Shown here piece by piece: positions 3,826-55,932 of a DNA stretch of 64,000 nucleotides. The position numbers and the translations under genes are program-made. Origin of the DNA: Trileptium ribeirensis (lineage: Eukaryota; Nematoda; Enoplea; Enoplida; Thoracostomopsidae); assembly GCA_030248225.1 (NCBI GenBank), contig JASANE010007305.1, positions 62,001 to 126,000 on the forward strand. Reading direction: 5' to 3'. The notes below the pieces were generated by a model. That model made no database searches. It was not told where the DNA came from and saw nothing but the letters and a program-made list of their open reading frames with translations. The first letter of the stretch is position 1, and each line of letters begins with the position of its first letter.

Positions 3826-4860
3826 ATGTCATTACCAGCGAGCGCTAATAGAACGCCGATTAGCGGCACGTCAACAACTAATGTAGGAGGTGGCACGACC
3901 ACCACGGCTGGTAGTACAAATGGACCCAGCCCCACTGTATCAGGAGACCCACTAGTAGCAATCCTACAGCAGCTTATGGAACGGACGACCACAACGGCAC
4001 CAATCATACAGGTGGGCGACATCCCACGGTTTTCAGGAGCTGACGGACAGGACTTCGAGGCGTGGCTAGCCACCTACGACAATTTGACGGACGCAAACGG
4101 ATGGACATTGGAACAGAAACTCATCTGTTTCCCGACTGTATTAAAGGGCGAAGCGCTTAAGATATACGAAAGCTTCCCTGACTGCCAGAAACAAACATAC
4201 GAGGCCCTTTGTTACAACATGGGTTTCATGTACTCCTCCTCGCAGCGCGACGAAGACGCGTTGATCACGCTACGCATGCGCATACAGGGAGAACGAGAAT
4301 CAGTCGCTATGTACGGACTGGATCTTCAAAACTTAGTGGACAAAGCATTCCCGGAGGTCGAAGGTGAACAACGTGACGCGTTGCTACAAAAGTTCCTGCG
4401 ACAAGGACTGAGGAAAGAGCTGAAATCTTGCGTAATAGGGAAAACTTATCCGTCTTTTAAACACATGATGGATAAGCTCAAGTACAAGGAGGACGCCATT
4501 ATAGCGTCCCAAAAGGATATTATCGGAGTACCGGTTCGCAAAAGCAGCCGGTCTAAAACAGTTAATTACATGACACAGGGAGGTGAAAATAACCAACTAG
4601 TAGACCAAATACGTGAGGCACTCGATGAGAACAAGCGCACCGCAGCCGGCAGCGATGCTACTATCGCTCGGCTCATTGATCTACTAGACAAGCGTACTGA
4701 ACAACACCAGCTAAATGCTATGATGCAAAATAACGGAGCACCGCAGATAGGCGCAAATGCAATACCACCAGCAACGCCAGTAGGAAACCAATGCTTTCGA
4801 TGTGGCTATCTAGGGCATTTCGCTAGGGAATGCCCGTATTTCCGAATGGACATATATGAT
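3826..4860 (+). other. Gag domain with one CCHC zinc knuckle
   Basis: Residues ~60-205 have the retrotransposon Gag pattern: a PRFSG start, FEAWL, then a helical region ending in QGLRKEL. The knuckle CFRCGYLGHFAREC (C-x2-C-x4-H-x4-C) begins near nt 4792 and would bind the genomic RNA. A Tyr/Arg/Gly-rich segment follows up to about nt 5350, typical of RNA-binding low-complexity tails. Confidence 0.9.
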
Positions 4861-7800
4861 CCATTGCAAAATGAGTATACACGCTTAGCCACGCGAGCAG
4901 CGCCTAACTACGCGTACGGTGCACCGCCACCACCCGCTATCGAATATGCTAGGCCGCCACCGCAGTACAATAATCGTCCTCGCTATCGAGTAGTTGAACC
5001 TAGAGGTGGAGCACGCTACTCGCGACGTGATGATTGGAACAATACAGCTAATCAGCGGGGATACACTGGTTATGGGCAGCAAGGATACTATCGCCCAGAG
5101 CCCGCAAATTACAACACGTATGGAAACGGTGGTCAGACCGAATATTATAACCGATCCCGCGGACGCAGCGCAAATGGGTATAACCAGCGAAACAACGGGT
5201 ATAACCCAACATACGATCGACGCTATGCTGCACCACCCCAACCATTGTCGGCCGAAGCCGCACCGTTTCGACCGCGCACGCCTAGTAACGGTTGGAATAA
5301 CGCAAATCAGTTAGGAGCAGTGCCTCGAAATAGACCCGCGCAGGCACCAATACATAATAACGAACGAGTTGATCGCCGTAACGCCGGCGTAATGTCAGTG
5401 ACCAAAGCAGTAGATCCTGAGCTAGCACACCGCTTAGATGTCATGCGACATGAAATGTCCACGCTTGAAGAACGCGCAGGAGCTGGCTTAGGCACCCGTT
5501 CAGCACAAGTTAACTTGATGGTCACCGAAGATGAAGCAATGCAAGAACAGAACAACCTAAATTTCGAGAGTGAGCAAGAATACCCAGATGAAATCGAAGC
5601 AGAACCAAGCACATATCAGGTAAATTCATTGCAAACCAGTAAGGACACATCACGAGAATGGTCACAAGCGATCAGGTCGCGGAGTGGCATAGAACCAAAG
5701 CAAACATATGAAGAAGGAACACTTGCATACGGAGAATACAATTACAGTGAAGTACAAAGCAACACTGAACTCACACGGCGCTCGGCTTTGTTGTTTCCAA
5801 CCCCTGGCGCGCAGGGTGTGACCCGAGACCTTGTGAATACTGGTTGGCCAACCAACTTATTTGTATATCCCGATAGGAAGTCAGCGCGAGGAGATGAAGA
5901 GTACCGAGATACCGAGCAGAGGAGTGAGAGGGGAGGAGGAACCGAGAACCTAATGGAACCTAATGATCCTGATGTGCCGAGTGAGAAATATGGGAGGTGG
6001 CCGTTCGGACTTCGGGGGCCGATTAATAGGGCATCCGTGTCTAGCAATGACCCAAACGCTGGCACGTGTAACCCATCTCAGGCGGCTGCACATCGGATGG
6101 AACCTAAGAACCTAATGGATGGAGAACCTAATGGAATGGAACCTAGAGAGACGCCGTTCGGACTTCGGGGGCCGATTAATAGGGGTCGCGTGTCAGGTAA
6201 TGGCTCTAACGCCGGCACGGTACAACCTGGGGAAGCGACTTTCTGTAGGCTTATTCAAAATTATATATGTGAAGCGGAACCAGAAGAACCTGCGGAGGAA
6301 CTTGCGAACCTAATGGAACCTAATGGACTTGCGGATACCGAGAACCTAATGGAACCTAGTGGATGGAATGGATTACCGAGGAACCGAGAACCTAAGGAAC
6401 TAAGTGAACTTAACCTAGCGGATGCATCCAACTTAACTAAACTGACTTCCACCAATTTAGGGCGGCCGTGTGAGGCCCCTGTAGCGTTTCAACCGACCGG
6501 GGAAGACCGTAAAGGACACTGGTCAGGTGCGATGGAGACCTTCGGAACACGGGTCAGTCCGATTGTCCTAACTCCGTTCAAAATTCGAAAGCGTATATGT
6601 ACCCCTAGTATCTTTAGAGGCCGGGGAAGACCGCTCGTGGACACTGGCCAGGTGCAAGGGAGGCGCCGGGAAGTGAGCTGTCCTGGTTGCCCTAGCTCCG
6701 TTCAAAATTATAATTTATGTGTAGGATCAAATTCGAATAGAGTTCGGTCCCTAAGTGTAGAAGCCGTAGGATCCGACCAGGTCGGAGGCCGCGGTTATCG
6801 TTTGTCGTTGCGTAGTAGCTTCAACCGGCAGGTGAGAATGTGTGTGTTTGAGTCAGAGTCGGCTAGGACCGACACCACGGGAATGTGTGTAGAACCGGGG
6901 GTAGAGACTGTGCAGCATGTGAGTGAAACAGGTCTAGGGCTACACGGAGACAACGCCGAGCCGAGTGCCGAAAACATTACAAACCTGGAACATCACAATA
7001 ATCGAGCTGGAATTAATGAAACTATGGAACTTGATGATAATATAACGGAACCCAATGATATTGACGGAGAACCTAGTAACCTAAAGGAGGATTATACCAA
7101 TAAGGAAGGACCAGTGGTAACCCGCGAAAGCTCGAAGATTGTGGTAATAACGCCTATGGTAAACAATATAGCACAGAGAGCAAATGGAACAGAGAACCAA
7201 CGATTGGAGAGTAACACAGAAATTGTAGTATGCCAATTGAGTACAGAAGGAGCCCACGCATTAGGGATCAGCTCGACCGGATCGTCGGTTGACTTGACTA
7301 CGATAATTGAACAAGCATTAAAGTCACCCGAATCACTAGGGAAGGTAGACACTTTGAGGCAAGTTGGCCTGGACACCGCGATTAACGACACCGACACAAA
7401 TTTGGTGGCATTTAAGTACAAATTAGACCACAGGAATACTCGGACATACAAACAACAGATACTAGACATCATACTGAGGAAACTGCACGCATTAGATAGC
7501 TCTAGTGAAACAGTGGAACCACTAATTTTGCAAGAATTACCTGAAGAAGAGCGATTACTGCTGCTGGGACCGGATTCAGAATTTGTGCCAGCAGTTAAAC
7601 CGGAATGTCACGGAAAATTCCCCCATTACATTCTCGCATTACCTAAGCTACGTTTCGGGGAAGATCGGATGCCAGTGAAAACACTATTCTACCGCAGGGT
7701 CATAGCTGTGTCGGAGCGGATATGCCATGCCCACCAGTTGCTCAGAGCTCGAGTGGCTGGAACGGCCCGAGTCGACCGACGGCGGGACGCTGCCGTTTTG

Positions 7801-10800
7801 TCAGGGCTGTTAGGGTTCGCATCTCCGTTCCTACACACTATGCCTGGGATACACGTCAGCAGTAGCATGTTAAAACATCTAGAGGGACTCTTGGAGATCG
7901 TTGCTCGAGTAATCAACGCAATGAACATCACGCAGGCAATCACAGAGGTGTATCGATCTCAAATTCCCATTCTACAGACATGCATCGTATGCGAGGAACG
8001 ACACAATCCAAATTTCATGCCTAGAGAAGAATGTGCATTCATCACCTATCACGGCGAATGGGATTACACCGGGAACCTGTCCGCCGATTATGGAATCATT
8101 AGACGAAATGGGACAGTATCCATTCGACCAAGTAGCACACAAGGATTACACTCGGTTTACGAACTCATAGCGTATAGGGAAGCTAACTTAGAGTTCCTAG
8201 AGACTATAATAAGCGCACCGTACCTATTAGACCACCTAGTTACGGAATTTGACGAAACCGGACCTAAGGTTCCGGTGCAGTCACTACATCGCATCGTGTA
8301 CGCTATAATGGCTAACGCCCTTTTCATTGACCTGGATAGTAAACCCAAGCGCGAGGAACTATTATACTTACGACTGCTATGGCTGCGCAAGCCCGCTCAA
8401 AACCTCTGGCAAAATGACCCAATGGACGGCATGGACTTAGTTCCAGACATGGACCATGACGCGGACGTAACATTCATCGACGAAGAGGAACTTGAAAGTG
8501 AGTTGAGTGCAATACTTAGTGACGCCAGCGGAGACGAATTTAACGCGCCAGCAATTGACTCACTCGACCCCGATGATCTCATTTCCGAGCTAAGTTTCTC
8601 TGTGGACACTGAACCTGCTAGCAACGGACATGACAATGCCGACAAGAGTGGCCGAGCATCACCGATCGGGTCGGTACGGTCCTCTTCAAACGGACTAGGA
8701 CAATGTATAGAAGCTGCGGTAGGTTTGCTAAACAAAGGAACCAAATTAATGGGGACACTACTGATTCTATTGATCCTCCACTACCTAGGGCAAACTCACG
8801 CAATTGCTACGCCATTTTCAGACCAAGTTGCACGCTTAGGAGCCATGGTAAATCAACAGGTGGGCACGCTAATCGAACCGCAAGGCTTAGTAATAACCGC
8901 TTCGCAATCTACCTTTTTACCAATAATTTTAAGACTATCCCTAGATGGACTACAACCTAGTAGGCAAGCCACTGGTATGGCGTGGTGTGTATACACTCCG
9001 CGGGGTAAACCATGTTTGGGGAATTGCTGTCCCAACCCAAATTGTACTACCATGCCGGATTTACAACAGAAAGTACAGGAATTAGAGAGAGAATTAAGGA
9101 GCACCTATCAAGGTGTACTAGATACAAGTTACTACATGGCACTCATGCGCGAGTATTGTGAAGCGAATTCTCATCTGTGCGAGGAACCTAAGGTTAGAAA
9201 GAAAAGATTTCTCGCTGCATTAGCTGGAGCCGCAGGCGTAGTAACAGGATTTCTAGGTGTAGGTGTAGCGTTCACCAACGCTGTACACCTTAAGGACTTA
9301 AATAAGCAGGTGCTAGCGTTATCTAAGGAAATGAGGAACACATATAATGTCGCCTATGGCAATTCGCGAGCGATCATGAAATTAACGCACGCTAATGAGG
9401 AACTGTACTCATTTTTACATCATGAGATGCAGGAAGTAGTCACCATGATCGATCAGGTCAGATGCCAGGAGCAACGCTACGTAACTGAGGTTCACCGCGA
9501 GCTAGTTAATCACATGTTTCGCACCAGCCTTAGATCTTCGGTTGACGCTGTCATGGAAGCCATGATGAGTGGTCAATTATCGCCTAAGGTAGTGGACGCA
9601 TCCACGCTTAAGAACTTATTTCAAAAGAACTCGCAGATAGCGCAGACCATTTTAATACGCGAACCTGCATTGGCATACCAATTTGGGCAAATCTACCCAG
9701 TGCACATCGATCTAGGCTCATTCAAATTTGCTTTCATACTGCGGGTGCCATTAGTCACGTCGGACGACGTCCGACCCTACTTCCGAATCTACAACGTAGG
9801 CTGGAACGTTCCTGAACGCAGTGCTCACATGAAACTACCATTACCTGATTACGCTACGCGGATTGAACGCGCACGCTATGAAGTGCTGAAACTGCATGCT
9901 TGCAACACGCGACCAGGTATTGCATTCTGCGAAATACACGCCTTAGCAACGGACCATACATCGCGTTGTTTGGACTGGATCATCATGGGTGAGGACGCCC
10001 CAGAGGAAGCTCGCCAACTTTGCAAGAATAGTGCATTGGTCGGGCCAATGGCAAACCATACCGATGTCTACACCACGGCACAAGGAGTGCTAATTCGAAC
10101 TGCTGAACGTAAGGCTGTCGTCTCCAAGAAGAAACATCTTAGTCACGTTACCCGAGGAGAGACAATTAACATCGCTGATAACGGAGTTTTGTGGCTGTCA
10201 CACAACAATTATACCCAGCTCGTGGTCGGGCCACTTATGCTGGCTAGCACGCTAGACGCGCAGGAAGTCACAATCCATATTGGACCTAACATCACGGTAC
10301 ATGACTTTCCGGACATACCACTCAAACCAATTGCTTGGAGCTCGCTGGAACACGCTAAAGCGACGAACCTACAAGTCCAACAAATAGCGGACGAGCAGTT
10401 GAAGAAGGTAATTGACTTCCCATACATCACTACCACTGGCGTAGCACCTTATTTATGGATACTCATTGTGCTAGCAATTGCCGGAATAGGAGCAGTAATC
10501 TACTTTAGAAAGAAAGCGGGATTCTGTCCTAAATGCATAATGGGACGCTTACAGCGTTGGTGGCAACAGCGACCATGTGCTCGGGAGGAACTAAGGCGAC
10601 CTGAATTACACATTAAGACGGACAATGAGTACGGCACCACTAACACGCCTCGACCAACTGTTTCAGCCCCAGCCGCTTCCACCGAACATCTCGAATTACG
10701 CACAATGAGCCCTCGCCGCTCAGCACGATTAAATGCTACCACCGAGGACGAAAGCGTTGTCCTGGTGGAGCCAACTGAATTATTCGCTGTATCTGAAAAA

Positions 10801-13800
10801 TCTCAACGTAGAGGACATCGCACCGTAGCATACCACCGACAGGTCAACGCAATGCACCATATGGACGCACCCTTGCTAATCAACGCATTTGTGTACCGCA
10901 CACCAGTACTTACATTAATAGACACAGGGGCAGATGTTTCCATCGTATCACAATACTTGGTAAATAAATTAGGCCTCCAGCCGCAACCCGACGATTCCAC
11001 CAGGATAGTATCTGCTACTAAACAGGAATTAGCATTAGATGGCAGTATAAGCGTACCTTTGTCGATCGGGTCCATAAAGGTACAAACGGAATTCTTTGTT
11101 ACTAAAACAGCACCTTATCACTGCATCATAGGAACAAATTTCATGTCCCAGTTGCCAAAGTGCATTATAAATTTTAAGGAACGTTGCTTAGAAATAGCAG
11201 TGGATGAGGAAGAGGCTAAAATACCTTTTGCAGGTCTAGAGCGTTACGACCCACCACTAATTGCAGTAATGTGTCGGAAGCTTACCACAATAGAACCAAA
11301 CACCGAAACGTTCATTAATGCGATCCCAGAAATAGCCGAAACAGGCGTAGGACCAGCACTATTTGTGCCCGCACCAGAAATGATAGATATTGCCATGGCA
11401 CATGCATTAGTGTTAAGGAGCCAAAGAACCATACCAATCGCAGTGATAAATTTCGGAAACACACCGGTCACTATCTATGCCGGACAAACAATAGGTCACC
11501 TTGAGGTAATGATGAACCCCAACGTACAATTCCTGAAAGACACAAACAAAAATTTGATCAGGTACGAGGAACACAAACCGGCCAAGCAATTAAATAATAT
11601 CACTGCGCATCCTGAAAGGATCATTCAACACATAGAGGCAGGAAAAAGGTCAATTGACCACGAAAGAGCTCAAACGGTCTTGAGTAAAATAGATTTTGAT
11701 AAGACCCTATTGTCGCCGTTTGAACTAAAACAATTGAAAACCGCTATTGCTGAAAACGCAGATGTGTTCAGCACGCATGATTTTGATCTAGGACGCTACA
11801 CAGAACATAGGCACCGCATAGAGACCGGAGATGCTAAGCCAATTAAGCAAGCACCGTATCGATTAGCACATTCCTTACGCGAACCGCTTCGCGAGGAACT
11901 CAATAGTATGTTAGATGCGGGACTAATATCACCATCGAGCTCACCTTGGGGATCACCGATAGTGTATGTAACCAAGAGTGACGGCTCACTCCGACTCTGT
12001 GTGGACTTTCGGAAGGTAAACACGGTAGCAGAGCAGGACGCATATCCATTACCTAGAATAGATGACATTTTAGGATGCCTCAGGAATACCAAATTAATGT
12101 CTAGTTTAGATCTAAATAAAGGTTTCTGGCAATTAGAATTAGACCCAGAAACCAAGGACAAAACATCTTTTGTAACCGTTCATGGGCAATACGAATACAA
12201 TGTCCTACCGTTTGGTTTAAATTCATCTCCTGGGGCTTTTCAACGTTGTATGTCCATGATTTTAAAGGGATTAGAGTGGGAAAAATGTTTAATCTACATC
12301 GACGACATATTAGTCTTCTCGCCAACATTCGAAGATCACTTAGCAGACCTAATCAAGGTTTTCGATCGTTTCCGCAAAGCAAACTTAAAATTAAAACCAT
12401 CAAAATGCCACTTTGGCAGAGGTAGTCTAAAATATTTAGGACATATAATTAGTACAGAAGGCGTAAAACCAGACCCAGAAAAGGCAATAGCGATCGAGGA
12501 ATTCAAACGTCCGGAGACGCTGAAGCAGCTTCAAAGTTTCCTGGGACTAGTAGGATACTATCACAAATTTATACCAAACTATTCAGACATTTGCGAACCT
12601 TTGAATGAACTAAAACGCAAGGATGCGGTATTTAAATGGACTCCTAAGTGTGAGGACGCATTTAAGAAGCTAAAACAAGCACTACTAGATGAGCCCGTAT
12701 TAACACATCCCGATTTTACACAACCATTCATTTTACAGACGGACGCTTCAGGATACGCAATGGGTGCAGTGCTCTCGCAGAAAACTAAACAAGGTCTTAA
12801 ACCCATTGCATACGCGAGCAAGGCTCTGCTAGATTATCAACGCAGATACCCCGCAATCGAAGCTGAAGCTCTCGCGATCAGATGGGCAGCGCTACATTTC
12901 AAGCATTATTTAGTAGGACACAAATTTCATGTAGAAACTGATCATAAGCCACTCAAGGCTTTGTTCGATAAACCACCCAGAAATTCACGCTTATCTCAGT
13001 GGCGCAGCGAATTACTACTTGAATTCGGAGGATTTGAAATACTATATAGACCAGGTAAAGAGAACGGCAATGCTGACGCGTTGTCGCGGGATCCTAGGTA
13101 TGACCCACACATAAATGAAGAGACGGGAGATACTTATGAAATATTGATGATGGGTCGAGGACGACCCACCGGCCCTCGTCCACCAACAACCTGCGCAGCA
13201 TGGGATCAATCGCACTTGCCGTATCCCGTACGCACAGTAACACCGCTCGCACCTGGGGCGCCAACAGCGATAATAGGAAGCCCAATAGCTCCCCCAGGAC
13301 AGCCAAACCCCGAGGCCATCCCATCGCAACTAGTTCCCGACACGCAGATAACTACAGTACCCCCAGCAACACTCACGCAGCAAGCAGCTACGCTAAGCGC
13401 GATCCCAATCAGGATGGATCCAGGAGGAACACCGGCAATGCCAGTACACACTACAACCATCTCGGGTTCTGGAGTCGGACCTCAGGCTCGAGGATCAAAA
13501 AGGCCACACCGGCCTGAATCAGAAACTGTAGGACTAAGAGCAACCACATTACCAACAGAGCAAGAATTTGATAGGCTCATGAAGCTGATGATGCATTATG
13601 AGACCGAAATTTTACCAACAGTCAGGATCGAGGACGCACAAGATACTCACGAAAATATATACCTACCATTCTTTTCAGACCTCCCAGATTTTAATCTAGT
13701 ACGGCTCTTGCCGTACATCCAAAGAAATGACCCAGAACTGGGTCCTATTTGGTGGTATCTATACAACAAAACACGGCCTAAGGCCGAATTGGGCGCACTA

Positions 13801-16770
13801 AGAATAGAAATGCGAGCTCATTACTTCGAGCTAGCTCAGGACACCAAAATATTATATATGCATCCGTTACAGCCAGGTGACATAAATTACAAACTGTGCG
13901 TCCCAATTACACTAGTACAACAGGTACTCAAACACGAACATAACACCTTATATGGAGGACATCCTGGCCGCGATCGGCTACTAGCAAAATTAAAGCAATT
14001 TTACTACTGGAAGGGTATGTCGGAGCACGCACAACAATGGATCAGGCGATGCACTCTATGTCAATCCGCAAAGGACCCAATTGCTCGAATAACCACCGGA
14101 TTGGGTAGGGTTCCGTTGGCAAATCAACCAATGTATCGTGTATTCGTAGACATACTCGATATTCAAGTTCGGTCGCAAGCGGGTAACCGCTATGTTATTG
14201 CATTCATCGACCAATTCACAAAATTCGCAATAGCAGTGGCAATAAGACACCAGGATGCACACACAGCCGCACACATATTTTTATACGAGGTAGTCAACAA
14301 GTACGGAGCTCCCAAGGAGCTATATTCCGACAGAGGAGGTGCTTTCACCGCACACATGTTTGAAAACCTGTGTCAAGAAATGCATATATTTCGGCACATG
14401 AGTTTAGCTTATCACCCTCAGGCAAACGGTGAAATTGAGAGGTTTAATAGGACACTATTATATTTACTGCGAGTAAGTGTGCCACAAAATGATCATCACT
14501 CCTGGGATGTATCATTACCATTTTGCATCATGGCTTATAATTCATCGGTACACACCGCAACAAAATATCCACCATTTTTGTTAATGCATGGGTTCTATCC
14601 CAGATTGCCCGGAGAATATGATACGCATAGCGCAGCTACAGGATACACCGGAGCACATTCTTACAGGGCCAACGCACAGCGCTGGATGGCTTCTATTAGG
14701 GAACGCGCATACCAATCAATGAGAGCCGCGCAAGAGATAAATCAGCTAAGATACAATCGACGCACTCGCGAACCACGCTATCAAACAGGTGAGTTAGTTT
14801 GGGTCTATAGGCACGATACTACACCAGGAACATCTAGGAAACTTACACCTCGTTGGTGTGGACCGTACAAGATACTAAGGATCACTCCGCCATGCATGAG
14901 TGTGAGAATGCATTCCAACCCGGAAGGCATGGAACATGTCGTACACATTAATAGGACAAAACCATGTTTTAGGGCATTAGATCCAGTACCAAACGTAGGA
15001 GACTGGTTAGGTCAAGTACACGCTTCCGTACTAGAAAGAGGTTTAAGTGAACCAACTCAACGAATTATCGCTGATAGGGACTTCGTTACTGAAATAGAAC
15101 CTGTAGATGAAGTAGCAGTGCGCACTGTAAGAACAGCAGTCAGTGATAGCTCCGACACCGAGAGTATAGAAATGGGTGACCCTAACGATCCTAACCTATA
15201 TCGCCGGACATACGCCGAGATTGAGGCAGAACAAGCAGCAATGGAACACATTGAGTATCGAACGGACGACTACGAGCCGCAAAATCCACGGACGGTCAGG
15301 AATCGGATTCCTCTGACTGATCCAGATAGGGAAATAGAACCATCTTGGCCGCCAATATCGCAGGAACAGGTTACTAGCCGAGAGGCCTTTTCATACATAC
15401 CAGAACCTGGTAGCCGAGACACACAGGTAGAATACGGACGACACACCGTACCGGTAACAACGATGGAAAGGATAGTAGCTACCAGTGAGGAGGTTCCTTT
15501 CGGAGTACCGACCGTAGGTGTAGGCATACTTGAAGGACAACACTTCTATCCCGCGGATATTACGCTGTCTACTACACCTCGAGGAGCTTCAGGAGGAATT
15601 GTCGTACCTGGTCCATACACTTCAGGAGACCTACGCTATGCAATCATGCTCGCTGCTCAGGACCATCCATTATTTCAATCACGACCAGCTGAACATATTA
15701 TGGCATCACGACTGCGAGTACCAATGGAGATGTCAACTCAAACTGTAGGAGACTATACGACAATACGCCCTTATAGCGCTCCACCAGCAGCTGCCGACAG
15801 ACCCATGTCTCCCCATCAATACGTTTTTCGCGAAGTGGCCTTTACACAGCCACCAGGGTCACCAATGTCCAGCTATTTATCGGAGACATCGGGTGAAGGT
15901 ACCTCAGTTGACGTGAGAGCAGCTGAAGCGGACGACGAACTAACCAGCCAGACATCGCAGGACCCCTCCTCAGCTGAAAGACGCGGTCACGCAGGACAGG
16001 AGACGTCCAGTGGTAGTTCTAGGACACCCACTACGCAACCAGGAACATCCGACTCACTAAGTGAATTCACGCCTGCGGAATCAAGTAGTGAACCACCTGC
16101 CCACCGAATGGGGATCGTGCATGCTGTAACATTAGGTACCCCTCCCCACGCACGAGCATCGGCAGAAGAACGAGGAAAGGCACTTGTTGGACGGGTCACA
16201 CAACAGAAACGAGTCACGCCAGCACGAGGAAGTTCCACCATACAGCCTGGTACGGTTGACCAACCAGGACCATCCTCGGTAACCATCACTGAGCTGGCAC
16301 ATTCCACTGCTGCTGTTACCACCTCCTCAGGAATAATACGCCTCGGTACGACTCATGCAACGGTCCCAACCAGGCATTTATTACATCGCCAGGCCAGGGA
16401 TCGGGTCTTTCGGCCATACGGCGCAGCATCAGACGAAGAGGTAGGAGACGCTCTGCGTAGATCCAGACGTGTAACTTTCCAGGAACCCGAAACGACCGTC
16501 ATTGAAGCGGCAGGAACGTCGACTAGGCTAGCCTCTACTACACGCACACACTCCACCACTGTTACCACTTCAATGACCAGCGCACCAACACCAACCCCAC
16601 AACCGCTTTTAACGAGAGGACGCCCTCCGGGTGGAACCCAGCTACCAACCACTTTCCCGCGATACCCTTCTAGCCAGGAATTACACCCCGCAGCTTGGCG
16701 ACGACGAACACCCCGACCACCACCCCATGAAGAATCCGACTCGGACGATCCAGACCTACGGGTGGACTAA
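3826..16770 (+). CDS. Gag-Env-Pol single polyprotein, 4314 aa
   Basis: One frame runs 12.9 kb from an ATG in favourable context (AAAAATGT) to TAA. Domains by residue: Gag core ~60-205; CCHC knuckle ~323-336; repetitive linker ~340-1150; unknown globular block ~1180-1530; acidic linker; Env-like glycoprotein ~1642-2240; aspartic protease with DTGAD at 2366-2370; RT with YIDD at 2824-2827; RNase H with TDAS at 2972-2975; Pro/Thr-rich spacer ~3105-3245; integrase with HHCC finger (~3370-3420) and catalytic D3442, D3502, E3538; GPY/F motif; then a ~590-residue Ser/Thr/Pro-rich tail. Gag and Pol are normally in one or two ORFs and Env, when present, is downstream of Pol. No stop codon or frameshift separates the domains here, so maturation must rely on proteolysis or on spliced mRNAs. 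Intact catalytic motifs suggest recent activity or selection. Confidence 0.95.
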   Translation: MSLPASANRTPISGTSTTNVGGGTTTTAGSTNGPSPTVSGDPLVAILQQLMERTTTTAPIIQVGDIPRFSGADGQDFEAWLATYDNLTDANGWTLEQKLICFPTVLKGEALKIYESFPDCQKQTYEALCYNMGFMYSSSQRDEDALITLRMRIQGERESVAMYGLDLQNLVDKAFPEVEGEQRDALLQKFLRQGLRKELKSCVIGKTYPSFKHMMDKLKYKEDAIIASQKDIIGVPVRKSSRSKTVNYMTQGGENNQLVDQIREALDENKRTAAGSDATIARLIDLLDKRTEQHQLNAMMQNNGAPQIGANAIPPATPVGNQCFRCGYLGHFARECPYFRMDIYDPLQNEYTRLATRAAPNYAYGAPPPPAIEYARPPPQYNNRPRYRVVEPRGGARYSRRDDWNNTANQRGYTGYGQQGYYRPEPANYNTYGNGGQTEYYNRSRGRSANGYNQRNNGYNPTYDRRYAAPPQPLSAEAAPFRPRTPSNGWNNANQLGAVPRNRPAQAPIHNNERVDRRNAGVMSVTKAVDPELAHRLDVMRHEMSTLEERAGAGLGTRSAQVNLMVTEDEAMQEQNNLNFESEQEYPDEIEAEPSTYQVNSLQTSKDTSREWSQAIRSRSGIEPKQTYEEGTLAYGEYNYSEVQSNTELTRRSALLFPTPGAQGVTRDLVNTGWPTNLFVYPDRKSARGDEEYRDTEQRSERGGGTENLMEPNDPDVPSEKYGRWPFGLRGPINRASVSSNDPNAGTCNPSQAAAHRMEPKNLMDGEPNGMEPRETPFGLRGPINRGRVSGNGSNAGTVQPGEATFCRLIQNYICEAEPEEPAEELANLMEPNGLADTENLMEPSGWNGLPRNREPKELSELNLADASNLTKLTSTNLGRPCEAPVAFQPTGEDRKGHWSGAMETFGTRVSPIVLTPFKIRKRICTPSIFRGRGRPLVDTGQVQGRRREVSCPGCPSSVQNYNLCVGSNSNRVRSLSVEAVGSDQVGGRGYRLSLRSSFNRQVRMCVFESESARTDTTGMCVEPGVETVQHVSETGLGLHGDNAEPSAENITNLEHHNNRAGINETMELDDNITEPNDIDGEPSNLKEDYTNKEGPVVTRESSKIVVITPMVNNIAQRANGTENQRLESNTEIVVCQLSTEGAHALGISSTGSSVDLTTIIEQALKSPESLGKVDTLRQVGLDTAINDTDTNLVAFKYKLDHRNTRTYKQQILDIILRKLHALDSSSETVEPLILQELPEEERLLLLGPDSEFVPAVKPECHGKFPHYILALPKLRFGEDRMPVKTLFYRRVIAVSERICHAHQLLRARVAGTARVDRRRDAAVLSGLLGFASPFLHTMPGIHVSSSMLKHLEGLLEIVARVINAMNITQAITEVYRSQIPILQTCIVCEERHNPNFMPREECAFITYHGEWDYTGNLSADYGIIRRNGTVSIRPSSTQGLHSVYELIAYREANLEFLETIISAPYLLDHLVTEFDETGPKVPVQSLHRIVYAIMANALFIDLDSKPKREELLYLRLLWLRKPAQNLWQNDPMDGMDLVPDMDHDADVTFIDEEELESELSAILSDASGDEFNAPAIDSLDPDDLISELSFSVDTEPASNGHDNADKSGRASPIGSVRSSSNGLGQCIEAAVGLLNKGTKLMGTLLILLILHYLGQTHAIATPFSDQVARLGAMVNQQVGTLIEPQGLVITASQSTFLPIILRLSLDGLQPSRQATGMAWCVYTPRGKPCLGNCCPNPNCTTMPDLQQKVQELERELRSTYQGVLDTSYYMALMREYCEANSHLCEEPKVRKKRFLAALAGAAGVVTGFLGVGVAFTNAVHLKDLNKQVLALSKEMRNTYNVAYGNSRAIMKLTHANEELYSFLHHEMQEVVTMIDQVRCQEQRYVTEVHRELVNHMFRTSLRSSVDAVMEAMMSGQLSPKVVDASTLKNLFQKNSQIAQTILIREPALAYQFGQIYPVHIDLGSFKFAFILRVPLVTSDDVRPYFRIYNVGWNVPERSAHMKLPLPDYATRIERARYEVLKLHACNTRPGIAFCEIHALATDHTSRCLDWIIMGEDAPEEARQLCKNSALVGPMANHTDVYTTAQGVLIRTAERKAVVSKKKHLSHVTRGETINIADNGVLWLSHNNYTQLVVGPLMLASTLDAQEVTIHIGPNITVHDFPDIPLKPIAWSSLEHAKATNLQVQQIADEQLKKVIDFPYITTTGVAPYLWILIVLAIAGIGAVIYFRKKAGFCPKCIMGRLQRWWQQRPCAREELRRPELHIKTDNEYGTTNTPRPTVSAPAASTEHLELRTMSPRRSARLNATTEDESVVLVEPTELFAVSEKSQRRGHRTVAYHRQVNAMHHMDAPLLINAFVYRTPVLTLIDTGADVSIVSQYLVNKLGLQPQPDDSTRIVSATKQELALDGSISVPLSIGSIKVQTEFFVTKTAPYHCIIGTNFMSQLPKCIINFKERCLEIAVDEEEAKIPFAGLERYDPPLIAVMCRKLTTIEPNTETFINAIPEIAETGVGPALFVPAPEMIDIAMAHALVLRSQRTIPIAVINFGNTPVTIYAGQTIGHLEVMMNPNVQFLKDTNKNLIRYEEHKPAKQLNNITAHPERIIQHIEAGKRSIDHERAQTVLSKIDFDKTLLSPFELKQLKTAIAENADVFSTHDFDLGRYTEHRHRIETGDAKPIKQAPYRLAHSLREPLREELNSMLDAGLISPSSSPWGSPIVYVTKSDGSLRLCVDFRKVNTVAEQDAYPLPRIDDILGCLRNTKLMSSLDLNKGFWQLELDPETKDKTSFVTVHGQYEYNVLPFGLNSSPGAFQRCMSMILKGLEWEKCLIYIDDILVFSPTFEDHLADLIKVFDRFRKANLKLKPSKCHFGRGSLKYLGHIISTEGVKPDPEKAIAIEEFKRPETLKQLQSFLGLVGYYHKFIPNYSDICEPLNELKRKDAVFKWTPKCEDAFKKLKQALLDEPVLTHPDFTQPFILQTDASGYAMGAVLSQKTKQGLKPIAYASKALLDYQRRYPAIEAEALAIRWAALHFKHYLVGHKFHVETDHKPLKALFDKPPRNSRLSQWRSELLLEFGGFEILYRPGKENGNADALSRDPRYDPHINEETGDTYEILMMGRGRPTGPRPPTTCAAWDQSHLPYPVRTVTPLAPGAPTAIIGSPIAPPGQPNPEAIPSQLVPDTQITTVPPATLTQQAATLSAIPIRMDPGGTPAMPVHTTTISGSGVGPQARGSKRPHRPESETVGLRATTLPTEQEFDRLMKLMMHYETEILPTVRIEDAQDTHENIYLPFFSDLPDFNLVRLLPYIQRNDPELGPIWWYLYNKTRPKAELGALRIEMRAHYFELAQDTKILYMHPLQPGDINYKLCVPITLVQQVLKHEHNTLYGGHPGRDRLLAKLKQFYYWKGMSEHAQQWIRRCTLCQSAKDPIARITTGLGRVPLANQPMYRVFVDILDIQVRSQAGNRYVIAFIDQFTKFAIAVAIRHQDAHTAAHIFLYEVVNKYGAPKELYSDRGGAFTAHMFENLCQEMHIFRHMSLAYHPQANGEIERFNRTLLYLLRVSVPQNDHHSWDVSLPFCIMAYNSSVHTATKYPPFLLMHGFYPRLPGEYDTHSAATGYTGAHSYRANAQRWMASIRERAYQSMRAAQEINQLRYNRRTREPRYQTGELVWVYRHDTTPGTSRKLTPRWCGPYKILRITPPCMSVRMHSNPEGMEHVVHINRTKPCFRALDPVPNVGDWLGQVHASVLERGLSEPTQRIIADRDFVTEIEPVDEVAVRTVRTAVSDSSDTESIEMGDPNDPNLYRRTYAEIEAEQAAMEHIEYRTDDYEPQNPRTVRNRIPLTDPDREIEPSWPPISQEQVTSREAFSYIPEPGSRDTQVEYGRHTVPVTTMERIVATSEEVPFGVPTVGVGILEGQHFYPADITLSTTPRGASGGIVVPGPYTSGDLRYAIMLAAQDHPLFQSRPAEHIMASRLRVPMEMSTQTVGDYTTIRPYSAPPAAADRPMSPHQYVFREVAFTQPPGSPMSSYLSETSGEGTSVDVRAAEADDELTSQTSQDPSSAERRGHAGQETSSGSSRTPTTQPGTSDSLSEFTPAESSSEPPAHRMGIVHAVTLGTPPHARASAEERGKALVGRVTQQKRVTPARGSSTIQPGTVDQPGPSSVTITELAHSTAAVTTSSGIIRLGTTHATVPTRHLLHRQARDRVFRPYGAASDEEVGDALRRSRRVTFQEPETTVIEAAGTSTRLASTTRTHSTTVTTSMTSAPTPTPQPLLTRGRPPGGTQLPTTFPRYPSSQELHPAAWRRRTPRPPPHEESDSDDPDLRVD
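5930..6730 (+). repeat. Repetitive linker between Gag and Env (three repeat types)
   Basis: A short motif around AACCTAATGG recurs many times between 5948 and 6440 and encodes variants of ENLMEPN. A longer unit starting CCGTTCGGACTTCGGG at 6001 recurs at 6154, 153 bp later and in the same frame (FGLRGPINR). A third pair starts with CCGGGGAAGACCG at 6497 and 6621, 124 bp apart, so its two copies are read in different frames. The linker therefore seems tolerant of sequence change and is probably disordered. Confidence 0.85.
7370..8420 (+). other. Unrecognised globular domain in the polyprotein
   Basis: Residues about 1180-1530 differ from their flanks: balanced composition, regular hydrophobic spacing, predicted helices and a Cys-rich segment (CIVCEERHN, nt ~7980-8010). 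I do not recognise a family. It is followed by a strongly acidic linker (nt ~8420-8620) and then the Env signal peptide. It could be a capsid-associated domain, part of a larger Env precursor, or a captured host domain. Confidence 0.5.
8749..10560 (+). other. Env-like class I fusion glycoprotein domain inside the polyprotein
   Basis: An in-frame ATG at 8749 (residue 1642) starts a signal-peptide-like segment, MGTLLILLILHYLGQTHA. A Cys-rich stretch (CLGNCCPNPNC) and a furin-type site RKKR at residues 1791-1794 follow. Directly after the site is a Gly/Ala-rich hydrophobic segment typical of a fusion peptide, then heptad-like helices and a block (PLV....YFRIYNV....P) resembling gypsy Env and baculovirus F proteins. 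A transmembrane segment lies at about residues 2207-2229 (nt ~10441-10510), followed by basic residues. The surface part is short (~130 aa). The class is inferred from the order of motifs; the closest family was not tested. There is no stop codon before the protease. The topology would place both Gag and Pol in the cytosol and Env in the lumen. Confidence 0.8.
10840..13110 (+). other. Protease, reverse transcriptase and RNase H domains
   Basis: The retropepsin-like protease has LIDTGADVSIV (DTGAD at nt 10921) and a later IIGTNF. RT spans about nt 11750-12460 with PYR, LRLCVDFRKVN, LPFGL and the catalytic YIDD at 12295-12306. RNase H follows (nt ~12640-13090) with TDAS, an E in EAEALAI and the second-half motif TDHKPL. 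All key residues are present. These domains process the polyprotein, copy RNA to cDNA and remove the RNA strand. Confidence 0.95.
13900..14980 (+). other. Integrase domain with GPY/F motif
   Basis: The N-terminal HHCC finger reads H-x6-H then CTLC (nt ~13930-14070). The catalytic triad is D3442 (nt 14149), D3502 (nt 14329) and the second Glu of NGEIERF, residue 3538, giving D-x35-E. A RWCGPYKI motif near nt 14850 is the GPY/F module of Ty3/gypsy integrases. No chromodomain is seen after it. The catalytic set is complete. Confidence 0.93.
15000..16770 (+). other. C-terminal tail of polyprotein, low complexity
   Basis: About 590 residues beyond integrase are rich in Ser, Thr, Pro and acidic residues, with no recognised motif and no membrane segment. 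The tail is far longer than usual for gypsy integrases. It could be a disordered tether or chromatin-targeting region; this is inference. Confidence 0.6.
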
Positions 16771-16892: not shown

Positions 16893-16908
16893 GATATACA
16901 CATTATAG
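16893..16908 (+). promoter_or_regulatory. Splice-acceptor-like site abutting the second ORF start
   Basis: A pyrimidine/AT-rich stretch ends in TTATAG directly before ATG at 16909. With the same layout before the third ORF it suggests these ORFs are translated from spliced (or trans-spliced) mRNAs. Not proven by sequence alone. Confidence 0.45.
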
Positions 16909-18147
16909 ATGCGACGAAGCTACAGTGCCACCGACGTCCAGACGCCAACGCTACCAACAGGCGTGCGGCACGTACCGATGGTTTGCGGCGGCGGCATCTA
17001 TCCCACGATGCCTCTTTACCAAGCTCCTCCGGGATCTCACGGAGAGAACTTCGCTGCTAAAGGGACTCGTCGGCCGATGCTCGCCAACGAGACACTGACG
17101 CTCGACAAATTCGAGCACAACGGGCGGCGTTTGTCCAGCGTGTCTGAGCATTTCCATCTCAGCGTCCTGGACCTGCTGGGCTACAACAACGCCGCGAAGG
17201 AGTTGGGCGAGGCAGACATTAGTCCGACGGAACTACAGCTCCACAGCATAGCGCTCCACCGTCGACTGCCAATAAAGCGGCGCCACATGCTGAAGTCATA
17301 CTACCCGCATGTCATGCGGCCGATACTGTTGGCGAAGTTCAGCATGCCCGACTATGCGGAGGAGCTGAATTCTACCGGGGAGCGGCATCTGTACAATGCC
17401 TCACTCGACGATTTTTGGGGAACGGGCGCATTCCATATTGACTGTTGCTGCGGCCGCACGTTCCATAACGTGACCGGCCGCCTGCTCGAAGAAATTCGAG
17501 CCTATCACCGAGACGGCCTCGTGCGCTGGCCCAAAGTCATCGTCGTGGGCGACGAGCAAGCGTTGCCCCTACTCAACGCCGCCGACCAACACAACTGGTT
17601 GGTATTCGCATGGCCACGTATGGAGATGGCCGACCTAATCCAGTGGGCCAACGCGTTTATCACGCCCCAGACGGACTGTGTCATCGTCCTGGGCGGATAC
17701 GGCAAATTATGGCGGGACGACAACACCGTCTTTTCGCCTAGTGCGTTTACCAAACGCATCAAGCGAAAGCTGGAAGTGCTTGAGCGGCGACTCCGGGAAG
17801 ACGCAGCCGTTTACATCGCTCCGCCGCCCCCGCAATGGAACGCACTCAACTACACGAGTGAGGCCTGGGCGACGGAGCTGCGCAATCGGAAACTGCGTCT
17901 CACTGCGGACCATCAAGCACTCCGCAACGTCATCATGCCCGCATGGTCGGCACCATTAACGGCACCCGAAGCCTGGGATACGGTCGGACCGTTCAACCGG
18001 GGTGAGGATCGCCAACGGTGGACCGAACCGGTGGTAGCGCCCGCTTACCATCACGAACTGGTCAATTGGGTGGGCCATTACGTTCGCTGTACTGGACTTT
18101 TTCGCCTCGGCGAACAACGCGGAGCCAGCAACGAAGAAGAAGAGTAG
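16909..18147 (+). CDS. NADAR domain fused to SGNH-like domain, 412 aa (copy A)
   Basis: Residues ~62-200 match the NADAR (YbiA/DUF1768) layout: FEHNG then SVSEHFHL (E80, H81), MRPILLAKF (136-144), DDFWGTG (167-173) and NVTGRLLEEIR (187-197). NADAR proteins act on ADP-ribose-linked substrates, and some remove ADP-ribose from guanine. Residues ~205-360 look like an SGNH-hydrolase fold: VVGDE (212-216) at block I, CVIVLGGYG (257-265) near block III. The catalytic Ser of GDS is Glu here, so esterase activity is doubtful. The Gln that usually ends the E-H-x-x-Q motif is Leu84. An insertion with three Cys (179-181) lies between the two NADAR motifs. It starts 138 bp after the polyprotein stop on the same strand and is paralogous to the next ORF. 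Role in the element is unknown. Confidence 0.85.
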   Translation: MRRSYSATDVQTPTLPTGVRHVPMVCGGGIYPTMPLYQAPPGSHGENFAAKGTRRPMLANETLTLDKFEHNGRRLSSVSEHFHLSVLDLLGYNNAAKELGEADISPTELQLHSIALHRRLPIKRRHMLKSYYPHVMRPILLAKFSMPDYAEELNSTGERHLYNASLDDFWGTGAFHIDCCCGRTFHNVTGRLLEEIRAYHRDGLVRWPKVIVVGDEQALPLLNAADQHNWLVFAWPRMEMADLIQWANAFITPQTDCVIVLGGYGKLWRDDNTVFSPSAFTKRIKRKLEVLERRLREDAAVYIAPPPPQWNALNYTSEAWATELRNRKLRLTADHQALRNVIMPAWSAPLTAPEAWDTVGPFNRGEDRQRWTEPVVAPAYHHELVNWVGHYVRCTGLFRLGEQRGASNEEEE

Positions 18148-18392
18148 GACTAGAGGGGAAACATACTTGCACGTAGGTACCTCCAGCCAAAAGAAAGCAG
18201 GTGATTAGCGAGAAATCCTGAAACACCCTAGAGCAATAGAAACCGTAATCCTTTAGGGCATAAGGAATTCCGTCTGCGGACGCGCGCGAGAAATCAGGAG
18301 CGGAGGTAGAAATCACGCAGCTATTTTATCTTGTTGCACTAGGTATGCAAAACACAAACTGACTATTGCGAAACGGGACAAAACCTATAAAG

Positions 18393-18407
18393 GTTATATT
18401 ATTACAG
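18393..18407 (+). promoter_or_regulatory. Splice-acceptor-like site abutting the third ORF start
   Basis: TTATATTATTACAG ends at 18407 and is followed at once by ATGGAC at 18408. This repeats the layout at 16908/16909 and also argues that the ATG, not an upstream TTG at 18366, is the start codon. Confidence 0.5.
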
Positions 18408-19742
18408 ATGGACAACAGCGTTCGGCAACGCGAAGACAACAAACAGGACGACTGCAGCGTTCGGCGACGCAGCGACAGTCAACTGGACCAAAGCGTTCGG
18501 CAACGCAACGTCAATGACATCAGGCGCTCCGAAGGCGGTCCGGCCCGACGATTGTCAGCAGCCGGACCATACGCTCCGCCCGAAGCAACTACCTACCGCC
18601 TACCCATCATCCCAACGTACCATGTCGACCTGACGAAGCCGTACGTTCCTTTCCTGTCGCACGGTACCGAATGGCCGGAGCTGTCCAACATGCACGAAGC
18701 CCCGACGCCATTCCACCACGACGGTACTACAGCTCCAACCGTCGAACAGCACTATCAGGTCAGAGTGCTCCTCGTACTTGGCCTGATGGAAGCGGCCAAG
18801 GAACTTATGGACATGGTAGGCACGCCGCAGCAAATCAAAGCAAGAGCACGGGCGCTCAAGGACGAACTAGTTGACAATATCACCAGCGCCCGGCTCAAAC
18901 CATTGCTGGAACACATAATGCGGCCCATATTGCTCCGCAAGTTCAGTATTCCCAGCTACGCGCGGATACTGCACCTAACGGGCACCCGACCGCTCCTGGA
19001 GGTAACCACCGATACCTTCTGGGGTATCGGACGCACACTTCAGCAATTGCGGCAAGGCGAGCAACCCAGGCATTGCCACAATGTCATGGGGCGGCTTTTA
19101 GAGGAGGTGCGCGAATACCTCACCTCCGGATGCGCTAGCTGGCCGCACGTGATCATCATGGGTGACGCACTTCCACTGCCATTGCTAGAGTTAGCCAACG
19201 ACAATAAATGGCTGATCTGCGCATGGCCTGGCACCACGCTGATCCGCATGATCCAACTTGCCAGCGCCGTCCTGACGCCGCTAACCAAATGCGTTATTTT
19301 ACTTGGAGGCTACCAGTACATTTATCGGGAGGCGCAACCGGAGCAGCTCCATGCGACCAACCCAAATGCAGCCTTCAAGAAGATTAAACGCCATTTGGGG
19401 ATGCTCTCGCGGCGGGTACCAGCACGCGCACCCATTGTAGTCGCACCGCCGATACCCCGTTGGGCCGCGACTAACCAAGATGCAATGTCTTGGACGGCCG
19501 AGTTTAAACGCATCGTCGCCAACCATCGGCAACAGCACGACGCATTCCATAACGTCTACTTCCCGAATTGGCCTGTCGCCTTTAATACCGCAGACGCATG
19601 GGAGCGAGACGAACCACACATGGAATGGCAGGAGCGCCCACAGTTCGAGGAGCCAATGGTCTCCAGGTACTGCCTGCGTAATTTGCGGGAGTGGGTTAGC
19701 CAATTGGTGCGCGATGCCGAACTCGGGCGTTTAACGCGGTAG
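18408..19742 (+). CDS. NADAR domain fused to SGNH-like domain, 444 aa (copy B)
   Basis: The ATG at 18408 is chosen over an upstream in-frame TTG because of its context. The N-terminus carries three ~13-residue repeats (SVRQRED, SVRRRSD, SVRQRNV). NADAR residues ~80-240: FLSHG...ELSNMHEA, FHHDGTTAPTVEQHYQ with E113 and Q117, MRPILLRKF, TDTFWGIG (201-208) and NVMGRLLEEVR (225-235). This copy keeps the family's E-x-x-x-Q pattern better than copy A. The second half repeats the SGNH-like layout with MGDA (251-254) and CVILLGGYQ (295-303), again without the Ser nucleophile. Similarity to copy A runs over almost the whole length (shared MRPILL-KFS, W-P, VI-GD, LGGY, KRIKR/KKIKR, PPIPRW/PPPPQW). It begins 260 bp after copy A ends. 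Tandem duplication followed by divergence is the simplest history. Confidence 0.87.
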   Translation: MDNSVRQREDNKQDDCSVRRRSDSQLDQSVRQRNVNDIRRSEGGPARRLSAAGPYAPPEATTYRLPIIPTYHVDLTKPYVPFLSHGTEWPELSNMHEAPTPFHHDGTTAPTVEQHYQVRVLLVLGLMEAAKELMDMVGTPQQIKARARALKDELVDNITSARLKPLLEHIMRPILLRKFSIPSYARILHLTGTRPLLEVTTDTFWGIGRTLQQLRQGEQPRHCHNVMGRLLEEVREYLTSGCASWPHVIIMGDALPLPLLELANDNKWLICAWPGTTLIRMIQLASAVLTPLTKCVILLGGYQYIYREAQPEQLHATNPNAAFKKIKRHLGMLSRRVPARAPIVVAPPIPRWAATNQDAMSWTAEFKRIVANHRQQHDAFHNVYFPNWPVAFNTADAWERDEPHMEWQERPQFEEPMVSRYCLRNLREWVSQLVRDAELGRLTR

Positions 19743-22412: not shown

Positions 22413-22433
22413 GAAAAAGAAAAAAAGGGGGGG
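22413..22433 (+). promoter_or_regulatory. Polypurine tract
   Basis: A 21-nt run of A and G ending in seven G, GAAAAAGAAAAAAAGGGGGGG, directly precedes the point where similarity with the 5' LTR begins. It would prime plus-strand cDNA synthesis and defines the 3' LTR start at about 22434. Confidence 0.8.
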
Positions 22434-24263
22434 TTTAGACACAGAGTATAAAAGAGACTGCCCGATTCCCCGATCGGAGCCAGTCGAGTTTTGAGTTTTA
22501 AAGTTTGGCGGTTGTCGCCATTTAAAATTTATTTTCGTCTTTTTGTTTTTGTTTTTTTTTTTTTCGTTTTGACATACCAGGGTTGGTTTCTCGCCGTGCC
22601 TCCACGGTGGAGAGCCTTCCCTGGTGCTTTCGCTTTCTTTTCGATCGTACCAAGGGCCGTCCTTTGCGGACGTTGGAGTGTCGGAAGGATGCCCCGCGCG
22701 CCCGTAAAGGCCGGGCCCCGTCGAAATTCGCAAAATTCGCTCAAAATTAATCAAAATTTCGCAGTTCTCGCATATCTCGACTGGTTCCCCGCTCCTCGGA
22801 CGTTTTCTTCTTTCGCAGGTCCGAGGAGTGATCAAAATGATTAACTGTAGGCAAAGGGCAGTGCATAAATTTCTAGGCTTAAGGAAAATTCGGTGACAAC
22901 AGTTCTGTTTTACATGATAAGGACCAAAATTTCTTTAACTAGGTCTTAGCCAAAATTATAAGGGGTAAAGAGAACGACACCAAGGACGTAGCCGTTTGCA
23001 TCTTTGGGTGACACGCGTTGTCCCCAATTGTTTGAAATCGAACTTCAGCGTCGAATCCTCGTTCGTTCGCTGTTTCTTTTGTTCCAAGTTAAATTCGATG
23101 CAAACGACTGCGGGCCGGAGTTTAATCAAAATTTTAGGAGGCTCATCAGCTGAGCGTAGACGAGACAGGGACTGGAGCTGGCGGTGAGTTAAATGGCATC
23201 AAAATTTTGGTGGGACGTGGTTTTCTAACCGTGCAACTACGGGGAAAATCACGTCGCCACCCTCTCCCGGAGCCCTCTGGGAGCGAGTTTCGAATTAGTC
23301 TTTGTTTCGCGGGCCGCTCCAGTCGCTGTCGAAATTCTGTAAGGTTGTTGGACTAAATTACATAATCCTTTTTAAATTTTACTTTTCTATTTTTATTTTC
23401 CTTATTAATTTTTTTTACATTTTTTATATATTATACTAATATTCAGGAATTATATTCAACAGAAACCCCACAAGATCTTTGAACTGAAGTCAGTTTCATG
23501 ACCCCGCGAGCAAGCCATCCGTTCCTGTGCCCTGTCGAGTTAATTCGCTAACGCAAGCTCACCCGCTTCTCCATTTTTAGGCCCTAGCAAGCACCCCACT
23601 TTGCACCCCGCATTCTGTCCATGTTTGCTTTACCTGACTAAAACGCTCCCGCTACAAATGCCCTCCGCCTAATCGTCGCTTTGCGCAGCCCTTATCAAGG
23701 TAGGCAACACTCGTAATTATAGATAAAACCTCCAAGGGACTGGGGCCTCCGCCTCAGTGCCCCAGTGCTATCATAAGTAATCAAAATTTAGAGAATGATA
23801 ATCAAAATTTAGAAAGCATACCCCGACTAGGCCCCTCAGGAAATGTGCGCGCTTATAGTCTAGGCTTCAGGGTCGGTGGAGCAACGCTCTAAGATTAGTA
23901 ACGAGACAGGTGCATAGAGACACACCAACGGGGAAAGTCATTAGGATCACGCTAGGACCAGAGGACCCCGCTTAGGGGATTAAGTGGATTATGAGGGAAA
24001 GGCGAGTCAGCCTTATTACCTGTGAGCAGGCTTAGGGGTTGACTCTCCCTCGGGGGACCTCATACCATTAGACACGTGGGCCATTATAGGGGCCAGGCCG
24101 AACACCCTGGTTAACCCGCCGGCAGCCTACTAAGCTAAGCGGTTCCCTTAGGTCATCGCATAGATCACCGGGGAGTCGTGGAAGCCGGGGTTGTCCGGGC
24201 ACCACACTAGAGTAAACCGTGGTGCAGCTGGGATCCCTTAGGGCCAGAATTGGCCCTAGTACA
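22434..24263 (+). repeat. 3' LTR
   Basis: About 1830 bp, starting after the polypurine tract and ending in ACA at 24261-24263. It has a TATA box at 22447-22454. The final block (23920-24263) differs from the 5' copy at only about 13 of ~300 sites, whereas the first 900 bp are about 80-85% alike and the middle is poorly alignable. Percentages are by eye. Confidence 0.9.
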
Positions 24264-28985: not shown

Positions 28986-29151
28986 ATTAGTTGCAGTGCG
29001 GCTTACATTGCATTTAGTAATTTCAGATTTGTATGCGCGGATGTAAAGTTTTCTCGTACAGAGACTGCGTTCCAACTTATCATATACAATTTTTGAATGC
29101 ACGATAATGCGTACTGCAGTATAACCACTGCTATTTGTTTCTGCTTAGAGT
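28986..29151. repeat. 166-bp direct repeat, left copy
   Basis: Matches 32689-32854 with the same length and only three mismatches by eye. The pair brackets the broken RTE-type LINE. It could be an unusually long target-site duplication or the 3' end shared by two tandem LINE copies. Confidence 0.85.
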
Positions 29152-55914: not shown

Positions 55915-55932
55915 TTTTTATGAAAATTTTTT

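Follow-up and report, generated by a model that had tools for sequence, protein, structure and literature searches.

The DNA analysed here is a stretch of 64,000 nucleotides (nt) from the nematode Trileptium ribeirensis (contig JASANE010007305.1 of assembly GCA_030248225.1, positions 62,001 to 126,000 of the forward strand), the whole of which is referred to as the window. From about position 1 to position 24263 the window is occupied by a single Ty3/gypsy-type long terminal repeat (LTR) element of ~24 kb, in which two additional open reading frames (ORFs) follow the one that encodes the polyprotein:

16909 to 18147, plus strand: ORF-A, 412 amino acids (aa), with a NADAR domain (~aa 35-200) and an SGNH-like half (~aa 200-412)
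18408 to 19742, plus strand: ORF-B, 444 aa counted from the ATG, with a variable N-terminus, a NADAR domain and an SGNH-like half

ORF-A begins 138 nt beyond the stop codon of the polyprotein, and its own stop codon is separated by 260 nt from the ATG of ORF-B at 18408, which is the first ATG in a frame that a mechanical listing opens at the TTG at 18366. By their position and mutual similarity, the two are sister genes located behind the polyprotein of the element.

The assignment of ORF-B to the NADAR family comes from a match to the Pfam model PF08719 (52.1 bits, E 1.1e-13) that exceeds the cut-off of 35.1, but ORF-A stays under this cut-off with 23 bits (E 1e-4). The weak match of ORF-A is backed by its homology to ORF-B, to which it is 37% identical across 377 residues that include the whole second half (E 3e-70), and it is only via this identity that ORF-A is tied to the family. 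The NCBIfam models TIGR02464 and NF053876 gave 53.9 and 29.6 bits with ORF-B, under their respective cut-offs of 73.7 and 240, and weaker scores with ORF-A. A preliminary description, drawn from the sequence letters, had portrayed the two genes as a tandem NADAR pair in an LTR retrotransposon, and these points have held up: the NADAR domain is recognised in ORF-B and extended by homology to ORF-A, the genes are similar neighbours downstream of the polyprotein, and the element possesses two LTRs and an ORF with a CCHC motif, protease, reverse transcriptase (RT), RNase H and integrase.

Relatives outside the host were detected for one part of one protein. The NADAR part of ORF-B matched phage YbiA-like proteins in tblastn searches (6 records, best E 2e-8), and the NADAR part of ORF-A yielded no phage YbiA-like match. 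Nothing was found in the PDB by sequence for either protein singly; a profile of both gave the NADAR structure 8bau as its best row, at an E of 0.015. No non-host homologue at E<=1e-3 was retrieved with the whole of ORF-B, the alignment of the two proteins or the ORF-B NADAR domain alone from protein collections that may be poor in animal genomes, the scoring for the first two queries being limited to the 8000 candidates that share the most words. A viral contig collection returned nothing for ORF-B, the joint alignment or a piece of the RT, an absence that says little since few animal genomes are perhaps included there. The GC content at third codon positions is 0.69 in ORF-A and 0.66 in ORF-B, compared with 0.43 in the polyprotein (0.36-0.55 across its 200-codon pieces), which hints at a separate origin of the two genes or at a different constraint on them.

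Both genes are abundant in the host genome, which was searched as 687 Mb in 20,229 contigs. The first look gave 2631 candidates for ORF-B, 95 of them then scored (at 80-100% identity), and 2462 for ORF-A, with 101 scored in 103 rows; the first-look candidates are unscored, and the copy number is firm only for the scored rows. Sixty-nine of the 95 scored ORF-B rows are free of stop codons and 26 contain them, as counted by eye. When 30 loci were fetched for each gene (the ORF-B set including the window's own copy), ORF-A was found to adjoin ORF-B at an amino-acid identity of at least 60% in 28 of the 30 ORF-B loci; one of the remaining two retains ORF-A as DNA only (L015, 87%) and the other is without it (L028). 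Conversely, ORF-B lies downstream in all 30 ORF-A loci, fragmented in some, and the polyprotein tail lies upstream in 28, the other two being truncated at contig ends.

The ratio of nonsynonymous to synonymous substitution rates (dN/dS, Nei-Gojobori), in which dN is biased downward by a choice of rows for protein similarity and at least 90% query coverage, is 0.112 for ORF-A (n=30; NADAR 0.108, C-terminal half 0.091), 0.061 for ORF-B (n=30; N-terminus 0.277, NADAR 0.038, C-terminal half 0.040) and 0.147 for the polyprotein tail (n=23). With ungapped copies only, the values are 0.061 for ORF-B (n=29) and 0.122 for ORF-A (n=15). Stop codons occur in 5 of 30 rows for ORF-A, 2 of 30 for ORF-B and 8 of 23 for the polyprotein tail, and pairwise differences at codon positions 1, 2 and 3 are 0.098, 0.068 and 0.316 in ORF-A and 0.059, 0.024 and 0.263 in ORF-B. 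Because dN/dS is low in both halves of both proteins, it is likely that each half does something useful for the element.

What the NADAR halves might do can be considered from their pocket residues, which we compared in the 30 copies per gene with E. coli YbiA, three phage NADARs and 8bau. In 8bau, a structure with ADP-ribose, K50, W89 and R93 take part in holding the ligand (PMC11543638). At the K50 position ORF-B has V120 and ORF-A, counted from its E80, has L87 (30/30 in each); by alignment of ORF-A to YbiA and the phage NADARs the site falls instead on V86 (V, I or A), and Lys is present in neither case. The W89 position is L163 in ORF-B and L128 in ORF-A, again in all 30 copies, and the R93 position, occupied by K in YbiA as well as in the three phage NADARs, is L167 in ORF-B (29/30, one F) and Y132 in ORF-A (30/30). 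This ADP-ribose clamp is thus gone from ORF-A and ORF-B alike, in practically every copy that was compared. The rest of the pocket has fared differently. E43 is retained as E113 in ORF-B and as E80 in ORF-A (30/30 each, with an offset of one residue in the alignment of the two), and D130 and W133 are likewise retained, as D202 (29/30) and W205 (28/30) in ORF-B and as D167/D168 (without exception) and W170 (one exception) in ORF-A. E125 is kept in ORF-B as E198 (29/30) and is replaced in ORF-A by N (27/30) or S (3/30), so that the Glu characteristic of the YbiA subfamily is present in the one protein and absent from the other. An invariant Arg, R119, precedes the K50 site of ORF-B by one position. 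For the E. coli C7 NADAR the counterpart of K50 is indispensable, though Arg functions there in vitro (PMC11543638); a hydrolase activity of ORF-B is still conceivable because R119 sits next to the K50 site and the other pocket residues are retained. The preliminary description had staked its enzymatic reading on the presence of the pocket residues, and that stake was partly lost: the K50, W89 and R93 sites are replaced, but ORF-B retains the others.

The second half had been described as SGNH-like; the predicted fold of the ORF-B C-terminal half speaks for it, but none of the Pfam SGNH models matched any of seven C-terminal halves at E<=10. The sole Pfam row within that limit was HMG_box in one copy (E 0.12), which is at the level of chance. 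The AlphaFold2 model of the ORF-B C-terminal half is of moderate quality (predicted local distance difference test score, pLDDT, 58; predicted template modelling score, pTM, 0.62), and of its top five Foldseek matches four are to entries of a single SGNH esterase and the fifth is to a PAF-acetylhydrolase-like protein, the best at an E of 2.4e-3 with no row at or below 1e-3; the model of the whole ORF-B was too poor for a fold search. An SGNH alpha/beta fold of the second half is thus moderately supported by the predicted model. With the SGNH blocks assigned by eye, the GDS motif that carries the block I Ser reads GDA in ORF-B (29/30, one V) and GDE in ORF-A (30/30), and Y takes the place of the block-III Asn in ORF-B (30/30) and in ORF-A (29/30, one Cys). 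Neither protein, accordingly aligned, would have the catalytic Ser and block-III Asn of an active SGNH hydrolase.

The start codons of the two genes are each immediately preceded by a sequence that might be used in the maturation of their messages:

16895 to 16908, plus strand: splice-acceptor-like sequence, its AG abutting the ATG of ORF-A (AG before the ATG in 29/29 readable copies)
18394 to 18407, plus strand: splice-acceptor-like sequence, its AG abutting the ATG of ORF-B (AG before the ATG in 29/29 readable copies)

From the 30 loci per gene, these counts omit L032 and L051, in which the match begins past residue 1. The bases before the ATG are ACAG, GCAG or TCAG for ORF-B and ATAG or ACAG for ORF-A, and 25 of the 356 ATGs on the plus strand of the element are preceded by AG. 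In the stretch 5' of ORF-B (276 columns, 29 copies), 10% of the columns are invariant overall, as against 14 of the last 20. The pattern would look like the acceptors of spliced or trans-spliced messages. A search by strict consensus found two candidate splice donors in the whole element, and none of them in the leader. The ORF3s of bdelloid LTR elements are reported to be made from spliced messages (PMC5408684).

The remainder of the element is arranged as follows:

1 to 2039, plus strand: 5' LTR, starting at or just before the start of the window and matching 22434-24263 (81% over 13-941, 96% over 1721-2039)
3826 to 16770, plus strand: polyprotein, one ORF of 4314 aa with gag, env-like region, protease, RT, RNase H, integrase and tail
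4792 to 4833, plus strand: CCHC zinc knuckle of gag (aa 323; PF00098 and pattern)
9196 to 9207, plus strand: furin-like site RKKR, then a hydrophobic stretch resembling a fusion peptide, in the env-like region of the gag-protease interval
10450 to 10506, plus strand: predicted transmembrane stretch at the end of the env-like region (hydropathy peak at aa 2209)
10900 to 11151, plus strand: aspartic protease (aa 2359; PF13975, E 1.3e-8)
11971 to 12450, plus strand: reverse transcriptase (PF00078, E 3.9e-31)
12637 to 13014, plus strand: RNase H (PF17919/PF17917)
13900 to 14418, plus strand: integrase, H2C2 zinc finger and core (PF17921, PF00665)
22414 to 22433, plus strand: purine-rich tract just 5' of the 3' LTR, judged by eye to be the polypurine tract
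22434 to 24263, plus strand: 3' LTR, by its repeat match to the 5' LTR

The region between the CCHC knuckle and the protease is labelled env-like by its features only (the RKKR site, fusion-peptide-like and transmembrane stretches of aa 1791-2227), and a credible match to it turned up neither among protein families nor in the PDB. A direct repeat of 67 nt (84%) lies inside the polyprotein ORF, past gag and ahead of the env-like region (6000-6222). The LTRs, ~2.0 kb (5') and ~1.8 kb (3') in length, are 76-84% identical over the first 900 bp, poorly alignable in the middle and 96% identical over the last 300 bp. Their divergence was considered as an age clock and rejected, as the 13-kb ORF, like the other two, is intact despite a difference of ~20% in the first 900 bp; recombination or conversion between copies is a likelier cause of the uneven divergence than age. 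Elsewhere in the window are a minus-strand LINE-like (long interspersed nuclear element) ORF pair for an endonuclease and an RT, flanked on both sides by 166-bp repeats of 98% identity (28986-32854), an ORF of the amiloride-sensitive sodium channel family (59484-60905), which is in keeping with an animal as host, and tandem repeat arrays at 33479-34082, 43859-44379 and 55904-56433, the last of which forms an open frame with repeats of the MKIFDNF type.

We tentatively favour, at somewhat less than even chances, the view that ORF-A and ORF-B encode a pair of ribonucleoprotein (RNP) adaptors that act by binding rather than by the removal of ADP-ribose. The two genes would be tandem duplicates, rather than the products of two captures, and co-inherited accessories of a giant Ty3/gypsy element of high copy number, translated from spliced or trans-spliced RNAs with an acceptor abutting each ATG. 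Each protein would combine a divergent NADAR domain with a catalytically dead SGNH-fold domain, and together they might form a two-subunit adaptor, possibly a heteromer, inside the RNP of the element. The SGNH half might serve as a platform for binding RNA or protein, like the OSK domain of Oskar, and the NADAR half might recognise a nucleotide or ribosyl ligand; ORF-B, which alone retains the catalytic Glu/Asp/Trp set, might yet act as a glycosidase towards some other substrate. Binding is preferred because the clamp is gone and yet the remainder is under strong constraint, and an RNP adaptor is preferred because of two precedents, the inactive, RNA-binding SGNH-like domain of Oskar and the NADAR without key residues in SNA-3. 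It weighs against RNA binding that ORF-A is not basic. Subfunctionalization is our best reading of the pair, which probably has a new job for the element and not the enzyme reaction that was proposed at first. The fullest version, in which two dead enzymes have become a new two-subunit RNP factor with NADAR as the part that reads a nucleotide or ribosyl mark (such as one on NAD-capped, ADP-ribosylated or trans-spliced RNA), SGNH as an Oskar-like RNA platform, an obligate heteromer and spliced messages with the acceptor at the ATG, we consider rather unlikely in its entirety.

Among other explanations, it is possible, though doubtful, that ORF-B works as an N-glycosidase whose nucleoside or ribosyl substrate is a different, non-diphosphate one, and that ORF-A is a pseudoenzyme that partners or regulates it. 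The near-invariant Glu/Asp/Trp residues of ORF-B, the loss of the second Glu from ORF-A and the position of NADAR as the most constrained part of ORF-B would all fit such a division of labour, and YbiA is reported to act on riboflavin intermediates (PMC9303266); there is, however, no known substrate, and the remodelled pocket is equally compatible with a binding site. The preliminary description had instead proposed a counter-defence, in which guanines in the RNA or cDNA of the element are freed of ADP-ribose placed there by a host ADP-ribosyltransferase. It has the family membership in its favour: the NADARs tested in three studies, YbiA included, are reported to perform guanine de-ADP-ribosylation (PMC11543638, PMC11125620, PMC11833690), NADARs of animal RNA viruses have been proposed to act on host ADP-ribosylation (PMC9503650) and E43, E125, D130 and W133 persist in ORF-B. 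We now judge it unlikely, as both proteins have lost the clamp, including the K50 site that the E. coli C7 NADAR requires, ORF-A is without the catalytic Glu, the SGNH residues are gone and no match to the DarT family was found in the host genome, a weak test that employed one family in six frames without introns and did not extend to other guanine ADP-ribosyltransferases.

A role of the SGNH half at membranes or as an esterase, of the kind suggested for the additional GDSL/SGNH ORF3s of bdelloid LTR elements (PMC5408684), is made very improbable by the Ala or Val (ORF-B) and Glu (ORF-A) at the Ser position and the Tyr at the Asn position. One could argue from the stops in 26 of the 95 scored ORF-B rows that the genes do nothing for the element and are passengers or decaying cargo, which is extremely unlikely in view of dN/dS values of 0.06 and 0.11 and the retained pairing. 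The RNP adaptor that we favour over these alternatives would connect NADAR biology (ADP-ribose and trans-splicing) to the handling of retroelement RNA, and two enzyme folds without active-site residues that are nonetheless retained by a high-copy mobile element offer a directly testable case.

NADARs of a different type from ORF-A and ORF-B also occur in this host, the strongest (the 150 that were scored, out of 2317 candidates) reaching 123.7-140.6 bits. Eight loci with canonical NADAR ORFs (L005-L012; ~139 bits in the three tested) were inspected, and in seven a packaging-ATPase-like ORF, or its end at a contig cut, lies directly upstream, the eighth being truncated by a contig end; the Pox_A32-like identity of this ATPase was tested in two loci and extended to the seven by similarity. 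The arrangement is as in Polinton/adintovirus-like elements, in which these NADARs appear to have expanded, and two unrelated kinds of mobile element in one host would therefore carry NADAR.

LTR elements with accessory genes are familiar, and there are few reports of NADAR in retrotransposons. In its layout, rather than by an RT tree, the present element resembles the planarian gypsy-like giants named Burro, in which an env in frame between gag and pol was first seen and with which it shares its giant size, one very long gag-pol ORF, extra domains and, as far as position goes, a region with env-like features in frame between gag and the protease (PMC6431247). NADAR is not mentioned for Burro in the available part of that source, and the BIR, ankyrin, MATH/TRAF, BCL2-like and dUTPase-like motifs of Burro were not found here by Pfam in the whole polyprotein and six pieces of it, single-sequence searches of this kind being weak. 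Capture of NADAR by retrotransposons has been described for an Ectocarpus Gypsy lineage and for the Tx1 LINEs of Crassostrea gigas, which carry it in ORF1 (PMC12477816); the present element differs in that a separate pair of genes downstream of pol encodes NADAR, which in each is joined to an SGNH-like half and deprived of the clamp. An SGNH-family accessory ORF is shared with bdelloid LTR elements, whose GDSL ORF3s are reported to have intact catalytic residues, unlike those here, and the Athena-L elements have GDSL derivatives without catalytic residues; NADAR is not mentioned in the part of this source that was available (PMC5408684). Among the titles and abstracts listed from the literature searched, in which subscription journals were mostly absent, none dealt with a fusion of NADAR and SGNH. 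The DarT-linked and YbiA NADAR hydrolases (8bau, 2b3w) have the NADAR core and the E43/E125/D130/W133 set in common with ORF-B (PMC11543638, PMC11125620), and differ from the present pair by the replacement of K50, W89 and R93, the added SGNH-like half and the lack of any linked ADP-ribosyltransferase that we could see. SNA-3, a nematode trans-splicing protein, is likewise an animal NADAR protein, with a role in RNA processing and one NADAR that is without key residues; it is a host gene with three NADARs, for which the available text does not mention SGNH (PMC9303266), as compared with one NADAR stretch per ORF here. The OSK domain of Oskar, which resembles an inactive SGNH hydrolase and binds RNA (PMC12247748), provides the corresponding likeness for the second half of ORF-A and ORF-B.

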